From the NCBI GenBank assembly GCA_030272585.1, contig BSYQ01000006.1, forward strand, positions 1,761,001-1,825,000: a DNA stretch of 64,000 nucleotides, written 5' to 3'. The stretch comes from Bryopsis sp. KO-2023. Taxonomy: Eukaryota; Chlorophyta; Ulvophyceae; Bryopsidales; Bryopsidaceae. This document shows positions 33,074-42,140 of this stretch, piece by piece (within the stretch, counting starts at the first letter, position 1; each line of letters starts with the position of its first letter). The notes under the pieces were generated by a model. The model saw only the letters and a list, made by a program, of their open reading frames with translations, was not told the origin of the DNA and did no database searches. The position numbers were made by a program, and so were the translations under genes.

Positions 33074-36539
<3,466 letters not shown>

Positions 36540-36892
36540 CTCGTCTGCTGTTAATGAACGAATCCCTCGCTTTGGTGTCCGTCCAGAGAATGGCTTGCCA
36601 ACGCAATTCTTGGGGCAATGATCAGGGACGCCTCTGTGTTTTTCCTTCGAGAGCGACGCTTCGCGGCAGCTCAGCCCACCAGGTCCGCACAAGAACAGCG
36701 TTGAAGAAAGTGATCGGTGGGCAGCGCCAAGAAAGAGAAATCGGCGTGAAGGGGGACTCAACAAACGAGGGAAAGAAGAATAAAGCCATCAAAACCACCA
36801 CCCAGTGCATCTCTCTTGTGTGTGGCTCGCTGGCGCTTCTGGACTTGTGGGTGGACCGCACGTATATCCATGCATTTGTAGCGACAATTATG

Positions 36893-39580
36893 ATGTTTTC
36901 CTGTGGAAAAAGCGAGCGGAATTTTGTCACTCAGAGTTCTGTTCGTCACGTCTTTGCCTCCTGGGTGGCGCACCCGTTGGAACAAGCTGCTCGTAAAGGG
37001 TTCACAGAAATTCGCGAAACAAGCCGACCGCTCTCCACTGAAGATTCTTGACAAGAACCAAACTCTCGTCGCTGTGATCAAGAACGCGCTGGTGAGTGCG
37101 GGAATCGCCGCCGCCACTTTTACATCAAACAACCACCCTTTTTGGCAGTATCTCTACGAACAATTGACGATGAAGAACGTGGGATATGGCTTTTTGGTAG
37201 ACCCCCCTTGAAGAGGTGCCGTCACATGCATGGCAAGCGATTGTCGCTTCAGAAGACAGACGATTTTTTCACCATGGAGGCTTGGACAACCGTGGGATGG
37301 CAAGGTATTCGACAAACGAACAACGATCAGGTGTCAGAATGCCTTGTCGCCAGCTTCGCCAGTTTTGCTTCGGGATGACCGTTATTCCCAGAGCCATTGG
37401 ACATGCGTCTGAAGCTCAATTCTTGCGTTTGCGTTTGCTCCAGGGCGTTCTTGAGCCTTGGACTCTGTGGTGGAGGATCGACCGTCACGCAGCAAGTCGT
37501 TAAGAACATGGTGCTCTGTCATGTATGTCTCATGGACGCCACTTTTTCGATCTAAGCATCACAGGTTCACAAAACGGCGGCAGCTAAAACCAGATTTTCC
37601 AGTCTAGGACCACCTCCAGAAAGATCATGGAAGCCATCCTAGCGACGAAGCTTGAGCAACATCTCTCGAAAGAGCAGGTGGGGCGAAACTCTGGGGAGGG
37701 AGCCGGGGTCACGCTGCTGGGAATGCTCAGAACTCACTTTAGCTCCCTTTGAACAGATTCTTCAAGTGTATTTGAACAATATCTACTGGGGTCATGGAAC
37801 GTGGGGAATTGGACAAGCTTCGGCTCTGTATTTCTGCAAAGACGTCGCCGATGTTTCGCTCCGTGAAGCAGCCCTCTTGGCAGGTAGGCGTATCTTTGTA
37901 TATTTTGTCGCGTCCCAGCTGTATTGATGGGGGGAAAGAAATGATTGTGATGGAAAAACAGGTATTCTGCCCTCCCCTGAAACGCTCACCCCCCTGCGCC
38001 ACCCAGTCCAGGCCAGAGGCAAAATGAACTGGACACTGTATTGTATGGAGCGAGAAGGCTACCAGACAAGGCCAGATGGCGAACAGACGGTGGAGCCTGT
38101 GTTTCACGAGCTTAAAATTAGATCTGGGAGTGGCGCCCTCCAAATACCAGGTTCCATAAACTTTTCACGGTAGATTTGCTTGGTCGAACTTTGACACTGT
38201 TGAACAGACAGTGCTAACTAAAATGGACGTGTCAGTAGCGCATACATGTTGTTTAGGAATACCCTATCGGGCTCCGCATTTCATTCAGGAAGTTTTACTG
38301 GAGCTTAATCGAATTCATGGTCTCCATGCAAACGAAAGGCTGGTTGGCGCAACTGTGGAAACCACGCTGGATCTGAGCCTCCAGGTAAGTTCTACACTTT
38401 CCTCCTGTGATTGCAACATTGCATCGAATAAGCCATTCAGACAAACTGTCAGTTGATGCTTTTCTTTTCTTCCAGGAAAGAATGGAGGTGGCTGTGGATG
38501 CTCTAAGTGCGAAGAGCAGAAACAGACTTGGGCTTGGAATAGTTTGCATTGAGCGCGGTGGAGGCATCTGTGGTCTGATAGGTGGGATGGATCCATATGC
38601 TGGAGATTGCGGGAGGGTGTTCAGGAAGCGGCTTCAAATAGGTTCGAAAATATATATATATATATATATTGTCTTTCTCCGTAGGCCGTTTTGGCAGAGC
38701 AGGATCTTTTTAATATTCGATAAATCTTTCAAGTGCTCTGATAAAGTAGCTTGTAGAACAGTGAAATATTTGAAAAGGTCTGGAATTGGGTTCGGCAAGC
38801 AAAATACTCAGCAAGCGAATTGAAGGGTAAGGGGTGGCACGATTCTGAAACAAAATGTTAATTGATGACAGATGTGGGGAGGTTGTTTGATTCCCAATGC
38901 AGAGCGACACAAATGTCGAAATGTGCTGTGGAACGTTTTGACCCCAGGTAGGCATCCATTATATATAAGCACAAGAAGTTGGTCAAACCTTCTGACGTTT
39001 TCTTTCTGTCGTTTTTTTTTAGTGATGATGAGTTGCATGATATTTTTGGTGATATTTTTTTATTTTTGCATTATGTTCGACAGGGCATTGCTTCTTGAAT
39101 GCGGAATTCTCCCTGGGAAAAAGGACCATCATGGTCATCATCTCGAAATGACTTTCCTTCAGTTGGTGTCTCTCTGTGGCGTTTTTCGTCGTGAGCAAAA
39201 AATTTCTTGCACTATTTTTTAATCTGCAACTATGGTATTAAAGTTGGTAAATACCAAATGCTTGCAACTTTTCGCTTAGAATTTTTTTTGCAATTTGGAT
39301 TTCTTCCCCGGTCAATGAAGGCACATGTGAAGATAAGAGCACACAATGTTTTCGAATGCAAAAATGTAGCAAACCTACTCACAGCATCATTTTCTGCAAT
39401 TTTTTTCCACCACAGATGGGGTGCACTCTGAGCCTTTCCTCATATCTAAAATCGCAACAGCTCAAAAAAAGATAATTCACCGACACCGGCCTGAAGAGAG
39501 GAAAGTGAGCAGAAAACACAGGATTGTTAAACTGAATGGGAATGGCGATCAACAAAGCGAAGGAAACCCATGGCTCAGAG
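36893..39580 (+). pseudogene. Class A penicillin-binding protein (GT51 + transpeptidase), apparently decaying
   Basis: Bifunctional peptidoglycan synthase of the type nuclear-encoded in plants and algas with plastid peptidoglycan. Glycosyltransferase block: VSLRTIDDEERGIW, WQAIVASEDRRFFHHGG (catalytic Glu), GGGSTVTQQVVKNM, ILQVYLNNIYWGHGTWGIG and LREAALLAGILPSPE. Supported exons: about 37143-37304, 37444-37522, 37608-37677, 37757-37883, 37962-38150, 38257-38384 (YRAPHFIQEVLLEL, TTLDLSLQ), 38476-38641, 38685-?, 38872-38947, 39084-39190 and 39416-39580 (GVHSEPFLISKI). Lesions: reading frame breaks at the C run near 37201-37206 and upstream at the T run near 37138-37142, and near 37610; the exon holding the expected Ser-x-x-Lys reads RAGSF then TAA at 38711 and TAG at 38747. 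The S-x-N site reads SQC. No KTG motif is found before the repeat at 39697. Start codon uncertain. Confidence 0.75.
38651..38668. repeat. (TA)n microsatellite
   Basis: An 18-base TA run within an intron of the penicillin-binding protein locus. Confidence 0.9.
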
Positions 39581-39696
39581 GTGAGGTCTTTTGGGATTAT
39601 GCACTATAAATTTTATCAGACATTTTTCTTACCGTATTAACCGTTGGCCCCTGCCTCAGGAAAAAGGGGAAATGTTATGTACGTCTGTTTGTGTGG

Positions 39697-42140
39697 AATG
39701 CAAACGGGGTTTCTTAAATGCTCGATTTGGTTGTGAGAATTCGAGTCATCAATCCTACTGAAAATCTCTCAGGAAAACTCGGAAACTGCCGGTGGCATGT
39801 TGGCTTTCGTGGAGAAAGAATTATTGGAGTGCTTGTGGAGGGCGCAACCGATACGCCATTGGAATCTCCAGTAGAATCCCCAGCTCGTTGGTTCGACACT
39901 GTTGTGCAATGCATGTAATGAATGCATGTAATGAAACAGCAAGTACAAAATTGATGCTTGTTTGGTTGGAGCAAAAGCCCAACATTTCACCAGAGGATCT
40001 CAGGGCTTCACCAAATGAAAGATTGAGTGTTTCGTTTTAAAAAAACAATGTGCACATGAGTGGTGTTGGGCATTTTATCCCTCACCAATTCAATCAAAAT
40101 TCAATCGAGGATATAAGTACTTACTTGTTTTGGTATGTTCAGCACCAGACCGCAATCCTGCCTTGGATCCTCCCAACACCTTTCAAAAAAAGATTTCAAA
40201 AAAGTATGGCTGGGAAAACTTGGCTGACAAGCAAAAAAATCAAAGACATTGCCCCCCCCCCCCCCTTGGGTTGCAATTCTGACAGCCAGCACAAAGAGAA
40301 CAGCAGCGAAATCCTTGCTGGGGTATCACATTACACACCTATGTTTCTGCCTAATCAGGCCTCAAATCATGCTCAGATGCTTCAAACAAGTTAAAAATAC
40401 CCATGGAAGCTTTTACAAAAGCGAAAACAAAACGTCCCTCTCTTCATTGTTCAAATGATATCGGCTCTCTTGACAGCCGACTGTTCAAGCACCAAAACTG
40501 TGCCAGCAAATTTCTCTGCAAATTCCAAATGGCCGATTGTTTCACATTTCATATTTCCCAACATTGGGACCATAATCCTGACTGACATGCTGTCAACACA
40601 ACCAAAACTACGCAAGGAAATGTTTTTCAAACAGCCCACTATGTTTTTTTTCTTTTTTCTGGGTGGTTCAAAAATTTTCTCTCCACCAACTATGCTCGTT
40701 TTTCAAAACAGTCAATTTTTTTTTTATTTTTTCTGGGTGGGTCAAGATGCTTTTACCCACCAACCATGCTTGCATCTGAAAACAGACTTTCTTTTTAGTT
40801 TTTTCTGGGTGGTTCTAAGATCCTTTTCCCACCAACTAAGCTCACTCTTCAGAAAACAGGCCAGCCAGCACACGAACTGGTCAAACACCACAAAATGAAC
40901 CCTAATAATCATATTGCAATATTTTTTTTTGTTTTTTCTGACCCTCGACTTCACCCTTAAGCACACAAAAGGCTCCGAAACCAACGAAACAATTCCATCA
41001 ACCAGCACTTGATGGTTCCTCCTCCAAACTTCCCTTGGCTCCACCTCTGAACACTCTTCAAAACTCCATGACTGGCTGTCCCAAACAGGCCGCTTGGAAC
41101 TTGGGCCCACAAGATCCTCTGTTTGCTCATGGCCCAACGTAGGGGGGTCCGGTTTCTCCATCTCGAAAATATGCCACCACTGCGACCAGGACCCAGCCTC
41201 GAGGACGGGGAGTTTCGACAGATGCCTGCTCCGGAGAACAGACTGGGCCAGCCGGGCGATTAAAGACTTGGTTTACTTATACCCCAAGCGGCGGGTCCGG
41301 AACCATCATCTTCCTTATTCTCCACCACTCTTCGATTTATCGAAGCCGGACCCGCACGCTTGGTGGGGAAGTTTCTACACCTACCCTTGGAATATCCATG
41401 CCAAGGGGTTCTTCGGAGCATCGTCGGGTTGCACAAGTGGAGCTCGAAGGAGCACGTGGCTGGACCAAAAAATTGGCATCTCGTTAATATCTGTCAACCC
41501 CGGCGGCTCCAAAACTGATGAGCAATCCCTCCCGTAACACAACGACAGACGCAAGAGCGGGAACGAAAGCGAAAAAGAATCTCAACAAAGCAAGGAAACA
41601 TGTTTAGCGCCGACGACGAAGTTAGCATCGGCCACGTTGCCGTGAGGTTGCGAACTCGATCGCGGGACGGTGGTATCCATTCCTTCCTTACCTTGGCTTT
41701 CGTGCACTTTTCGGGTGTCGAGGGGGTGTCCATTTCGGTGCACGCGTCGGTTTGGACGTGCGTGGCTGCCATTGTTTTTTTCTGCTGGTCCTGGAGCGGT
41801 TTTGCAGGTGGTGCAAAATTGAACTTCAATCTGAAAAAGTACAAATAATGAGTCCAGCTAGATTCTGGCGGTACCGCCAGAGTCTTACGCAAAGCAGTGG
41901 TTTGGGTGCCCGACATAGCCTCTGGCTCAGCCTCTGTTCGACCAGGCGCCAGTTTCAGAATGCATGCTCATTACTAAACGTATACAACAGAAGGTAAGAA
42001 TAATAAAATAGTTTTTAAAATTTTGACTAGTGTTATATATTTGTTGCATACATTTTTTTGTGATGTAGAAAAATACATACACCTGTAGAGATGGGCCTTG
42101 AACGAATGAATAAGTAATTCTGGAAATTTTCAAAGGGGAA
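39697..42140. repeat. Right arm of the long inverted duplication
   Basis: Reverse-complement copy of about 1745-4668, including the 75-base tandem units (about 40640-40865) and the 147-residue open frame (41094-41537). It begins about 115 bases after the last recognised penicillin-binding protein exon, so the arm may have been inserted into or next to that gene. Confidence 0.85.
41840..41950 (+). pseudogene. Remnant of duplicated NDC80 exon 1
   Basis: Keeps the two flanks of the NDC80 exon (GGGTGCCCGACATAGCCTC, and GTTCGACCAG at its end) but lacks the roughly 460 bases between them, so the CH domain is gone. The 5' splice site after GACCAG reads GCGCC instead of GTGCC in the intact copy. On the duplicated arm the gene would read along the plus strand. 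Confidence 0.75.

Follow-up and report, generated by a model that had tools for sequence, protein, structure and literature searches.

Whether peptidoglycan can be built in chloroplasts without cross-linking enzymes is disputed, and a gene of the siphonous green alga Bryopsis sp. KO-2023 offers a setting for the question of how a GT51 enzyme on its own would act in a plastid. The gene, a homologue of class A penicillin-binding proteins (PBPs), lies on the plus strand at about 37,035-39,918 of the window, the whole stretch of 64,000 bases analysed here (positions 1,761,001-1,825,000 of contig C6). The first-pass annotation described it as a plastid-type class A PBP caught in decay, broken by stops and shifted frames, with the glycosyltransferase half decaying after the transpeptidase half, or else as one inactive paralogue. 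A literature search found no published account of this gene. The question is whether the locus is a dying gene or one of which a single half is still in use.

The exon structure was determined by spliced alignment of prokaryotic PBP profiles against the DNA, with GT-AG introns in three phases and penalised frameshifts allowed. The reference set comprised 112 loci, each with a GT51 open reading frame (ORF) and 111 of them distinct, and the alignment profile was built from the 32 distinct sequences of the cyanobacterial phylum. Between 37038 and 38641 lie eight exons; the seven introns that separate them are all of the GT-AG type and keep the phase, and 307 amino acids are encoded without a stop. 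Extended to the stop codon, one path (route A) comprises 13 exons and 12 introns of 76-225 bases, again all GT-AG and in phase. The spliceosomal introns seen at first pass were thus confirmed, as was the in-phase junction of SLCGVFR and HGVHSEPFLI across intron 39191-39415. The extent first given to the gene, 36893-39580, proved too short at its 3' end: homology begins near 37035, and the TAA that closes the last exon lies at 39916-39918. The true gene start is upstream of 37035, where an ORF with an ATG at 36554 can be joined to the first mapped exon by several in-phase routes.

Table 1. Features of the PBP gene, in window positions, with the basis of each assignment.
Feature	Position	Strand	Basis
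Exon, strand before GT51 (PLKILDKNQTLVAVIKNAL)	37035..37091	+	profile-guided spliced alignment
Intron GTGAGT..TGGTAG, phase 0	37092..37200	+	spliced alignment
Exon, GT51 motif 1 (EDRRFFHHGG)	37201..37304	+	PF00912 match, alignment
Exon, GT51 motif 2 (GGGSTVTQQVVKN)	37444..37522	+	spliced alignment, column counts
Exon, GT51 motif 3 (RKIMEA)	37603..37677	+	spliced alignment, column counts
Exon, GT51 motif 4 (ILQVYLNNIYWG)	37757..37883	+	PF00912 match, alignment
Exon, GT51 end (ILPSPETL) and linker start	37962..38150	+	end 38150 set by hand, 38129 by alignment; both in phase
Exon, linker (IPYRAPHFIQEV..TTLDLSLQ)	38257..38384	+	spliced alignment
Exon, transpeptidase start (GLIGGMDPYAGDCGRVFRKRLQI)	38476..38641	+	top of 1999 window ORFs with the SxxK block, E 0.10
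Expected place of Ser-x-x-Lys to Ser-x-Asn	38642..39083	+	several splice routes; route A exons 38778-38826 and 38903-38947
Exon, transpeptidase (ALLLECGILPG..SLCGVFR)	39084..39190	+	in-phase route
Exon, transpeptidase (GVHSEPFLISKI..)	39416..39580	+	top of 1999 window ORFs with the mid block, E 0.011
Last exon, KLGN replacing KTGT (KLG codons 39775-39783), stop TAA 39916-39918	39773..39918	+	MAFFT, global splice alignments

A seryl-tRNA synthetase gene lies directly upstream on the minus strand (33676-36290) and is divergent to the PBP gene; its N-terminal domain and core were matched at 4e-12 and 3.3e-20, respectively. Because of this neighbour and of the introns in the PBP gene itself, the locus reads as ordinary nuclear sequence, and a bacterial contaminant is disfavoured.

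The supposed signs of decay did not survive the exon map. The homopolymer frame breaks reported near 37140 and 37204 fall in, or just past the acceptor of, the phase-0 intron 37092-37200, and no frameshift was used by the spliced alignment even at a low penalty. A frameshift in the run of C at 37202-37207 was also considered and dropped, since the same intron accounts for it. The two stops that had been called in frame, TAA at 38711 and TAG at 38747, are each shifted by 1 (mod 3) from the reading frame of exon 38476, a frame that stays open to 38820. The case for a gene caught in decay thus rested on features that lie in an intron or outside the reading frame. Since a route from 37038 to 39916 is open, the two stops are no evidence of gene death. 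The window is rich in homopolymers, with 67 C or G runs of at least six bases and 161 A or T runs of at least eight, and false frameshift calls are easily made when such DNA is read by eye.

Openness of the frame is equally no evidence of function over 38642-39083, because many splice routes are open there. Under loose rules, the exon at 38476 could be joined to the exon at 39084 by five open routes without an intermediate exon and by 191 with one, and the region came out differently depending on the setting (global spliced alignment, smoothed profile). When four transpeptidase exons were subjected to dinucleotide shuffling (1000 shuffles each), 47, 422, 89 and 141 of the shuffled sequences were open in the chosen phase.

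The GT51 half was tested with PF00912 in three frames with stops written as X. Two frames matched (E = 2.3e-18 in one and 1.2e-11 in another), and these matches, together with five motifs that include the catalytic Glu, place the protein in GT51 as the first-pass annotation had it. Compared with the 111 bacterial sequences, the gene kept 23/23 of the GT51 columns conserved at ≥95% and 35/38 of those conserved at ≥90%. The predicted GT51 domain is thus whole and read in one frame, and none of the near-invariant positions examined has changed; the decay proposed for the glycosyltransferase was not seen. Conservation of this kind would also be compatible with a very recent loss of function.

The overall order of GT51, linker and transpeptidase is that of a bifunctional enzyme, with two transpeptidase blocks following the linker in order, both as weak matches (E 0.10 and 0.011). 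Among the 1999 ORFs of the window, the PBP gene ranked first with two blocks, SxxK (9.8 bits) and mid (12.7 bits); it was unlisted for the SxN block, and for the KTG block alone it ranked 26th (E 23). Over the whole transpeptidase, it scored 11.1 or 16.0 bits, depending on the splice reading, whereas the lowest score among the 106 of 111 references that have both SxxK and KTG was 276.3; the gap is somewhat inflated because these references also built the model. Transpeptidase columns were kept at 11/24 (route A) or 10/24 (route D, a second splice reading) for ≥95% conservation and at 14/37 in both routes for ≥90%.

As was first claimed, an intact Ser-x-x-Lys/Ser-x-Asn/KTG set could not be recognised. 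An ungapped profile match at the SxxK block gave GGMDPYAGDCGRVFRKRLQIGSKIY (QIGSKIY), in which the Ser is kept and the Lys at +3 is Tyr. The candidate catalytic Ser codon is TCG at 38644-38646, and a donor at 38642, if used, splices it out. An (AT)n microsatellite (38650-38669) follows this codon directly and adjoins a possible exon end. A second Ser-x-x-Lys-like string, SASK, is present in exon 38778-38826 of route A. At the SxN position SQC was read, by eye only. The KTG motif most likely reads KLG, since KLGN was aligned to KTGT and is followed by W-x-V-G-F as in the references. The three motifs of a class A PBP thus appear as SKIY or spliced out, as SQC by eye, and as KLG. The predicted transpeptidase is partly recognisable but without its catalytic motif set, and the loss of transpeptidase function suggested at first pass is supported by the lost motifs and by the score of 11-16 bits.

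The search of the rest of the genome (91,088,769 bases, 28 contigs) that had been proposed with the first-pass annotation was carried out in six frames, exon by exon, with limited sensitivity. It recovered MurE, MraY and Ddl; a second GT51 gene, MurA and any further Mur ligase went undetected at this sensitivity. One GT51 gene was detected in the whole genome, and no PF00905 match was found in it at E 1, the PBP gene itself included, a level at which eroded copies would escape. The suggestion of one inactive paralogue is accordingly unsupported.

PF08245 matched one gene, for which MurE was the best fit (one exon scanned, below the whole-protein curated cut-off). This gene (C10:3337049-3341473) reads VDNAQTP and NDSPR where bacterial MurE has VDYAHTP and DNPR, and its P-loop is GSTGKT. 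With PF00953, two genes were found: MraY (TIGR00445, 170.9 bits over two exons against a cut-off of 192.05) and one that by eye resembles ALG7. The MraY-like gene (C4:3370154-3373642, minus strand) has FMGNAGALGLG against FMGDVGALGLG in the best solved bacterial MraY, so that Asn replaces an Asp which we take to be catalytically important; its DD, NLTDGLDG and HHHLE parts appear kept. A clear Ddl was matched by PF07478 on contig C2 (NF002378, 312.1 bits, cut-off 243); the same profile matched an ORF that by eye looks like carbamoyl-phosphate synthase, and a weaker Dala_Dala_lig_C match of 26.4 bits, over the cut-off, lies at C7:4939225-4939554.

No MurA was detected in the whole-genome PF00275 search, which matched one gene; its six exons were read, by their motifs, as AroA rather than MurA. 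The detection of six AroA exons indicates that intron-rich genes can be found by an exon-level search. No MurG was detected either: PF04101 gave two other genes, which by their motifs we take to be MGDG synthase and ALG13, and TIGR01133 gave only 21 bits to the first of them. Other Mur ligases and other transpeptidases were likewise undetected at the exon-by-exon level. Folylpolyglutamate synthase, which is expected to match PF08245, was not listed in the whole-genome search with that profile, and the Mur absences are therefore provisional. The observed set is MurE, MraY and Ddl, with MurA, the other Mur ligases and MurG undetected at this limited sensitivity.

Taken together, these data suggest that the locus is probably a nuclear gene still in use, coding for a class A PBP homologue that would in effect be a glycosyltransferase only. 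A recent pseudogene, unexpressed or mis-spliced and with a GT51 half that has not had time to decay, is unlikely. It would account for the eroded transpeptidase, the AT repeat at the SxxK site and the ambiguous splicing there, but 37038-39916 can be read without an assumed stop or frameshift and the two halves have eroded unequally (23/23 against 10-11/24 columns at ≥95%, 35/38 against 14/37 at ≥90%). This inequality suggests that selection held GT51 after it had released the transpeptidase. For GT51 to be kept in this way, it must still have had a use once cross-linking had gone, and a glycosyltransferase-only protein is thus favoured over a pseudogene. We regard as highly improbable a working bifunctional PBP with a divergent transpeptidase, its motifs masked by wrong splicing. 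GSASK is in phase in route A, and the exon boundaries of the first-pass annotation were wrong elsewhere, both of which speak for it. Against it, the stretch from SxxK to SxN is shorter by about 40 residues in route A, an estimate made from the profile; neither SxN nor KTG was restored in any of four routes that were spelled out; the ungapped profile match sets the Ser at 38644 and not within SASK; and the transpeptidase score stays far below the ≥276.3 bits of the references.

A GT51 tree was built from 63 rows, namely the 32 cyanobacterial-phylum sequences, 30 of the 79 others (random draw) and this gene, all references being prokaryotic. The gene grouped as sister to most of the cyanobacterial-phylum rows (25 of 32), on a long branch with a support of 97/58, and the motif YWGH, which it shares, occurred in 19/32 cyanobacterial-phylum sequences and in 0/79 others. 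A cyanobacterial origin is favoured, not firm; descent from the plastid ancestor would perhaps follow from it, and the label plastid-type is plausible. That the donor was instead a non-cyanobacterial bacterium, with erosion setting in later, appears very unlikely on the YWGH count and the tree from the mended reference set. Some observations lean that way: the sister position is not firmly supported, given the long branch and an unusual composition; a tree on a faulty reference set had joined the gene to 3 of 30 non-cyanobacterial rows; and the best prokaryote match in a pattern-seeded scan was a Myxococcales MAG (47% over residues 2-166), obtained with a query that had exon 37444 in the wrong frame.

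For the glycosyltransferase-only product, the best reading is a remnant convergent with the transglycosylase-only proteins of angiosperms, which lack the transpeptidase according to passages of PMC12681378 and PMC9954125. As in those PBP relatives, GT51 appears kept and transpeptidation lost; the Bryopsis gene differs in belonging to a separate lineage and in having a worn transpeptidase still attached, and fewer Mur genes were detected here than the nine reported for some transglycosylase-only angiosperms. The alga would thus represent an independent case of the angiosperm-like asymmetry, one in which the transpeptidase is only partly eroded and few genes of the pathway were detected. Bacterial monofunctional glycosyltransferases (TIGR02070, 119.9 bits) would be alike if the protein acts as GT51 only, but the PBP1A-family model TIGR02074 scored higher (213.4 bits), and a linker and transpeptidase remnants follow the GT51 domain.

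PpPBP of moss and PaPBP of Picea, the plastid class A PBPs described in PMC12681378, resemble the Bryopsis gene in being nuclear, in the order of GT51 and transpeptidase and in their photosynthetic hosts; here, in contrast, the transpeptidase motifs are lost and most Mur genes were undetected. For the moss PBP, the same source reports that both activities are needed for plastid division and that the protein binds PDV2. PMC10784329 gives PBP orthologues in seed plants and considers a peptidoglycan layer likely in Ulva mutabilis. Micromonas commoda, for which part of PMC4815162 gives a reduced set of MurE, MraY, MurG and PBP, is likewise a green alga with a PBP beside an incomplete pathway, a likeness by gene set; Bryopsis differs in having Ddl and in that MurG was undetected.

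Once the need for cross-linking was lost, selection would have retained the GT51 half alone. The pathway as detected is down to MurE, Ddl and MraY, and a normal supply of lipid II is therefore doubtful. That MurA, MurC/D/F and MurG were undetected may mean that the usual substrate is absent, which would equally suit a gene that no longer has a function. An altered substrate is plausible for the GT51 protein, as is service as a scaffold: it could act in the plastid envelope on a lipid-linked amino sugar, polymerising it, or take part in the plastid-division machinery. It is predicted not to bind beta-lactams. By analogy with the PDV2 binding reported for the moss PBP in PMC12681378, a scaffold role is conceivable. 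The boldest form of this idea, which we hold to be possible though rather doubtful, is that in an alga which has stopped making lipid II by the known route, with GT51 fully conserved and the transpeptidase dead, the protein has acquired a new use. Candidate uses would be as a scaffold in plastid division, acting through the worn domain, or as a polymerase of some other lipid-linked sugar in the plastid envelope.

The genome is that of a photosynthetic organism, with at least 107 LHC-domain matches among those listed. Over 121 residues, an LHCII segment agrees at 120 positions with two solved chains, 8hlv_A (siphonaxanthin, Bry-Lhcb1) and 9k7v_1 (Lhcb1), and the entry 9jzr scores almost as high; a chlorarachniophyte origin was dropped on this match. 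One pair of LHC genes with equal scores lies in opposite orientation 68 kb apart (C9:482708-483292, plus strand, and C9:551333-551917, minus strand), and other equal-score pairs were present among the 107 matches listed.
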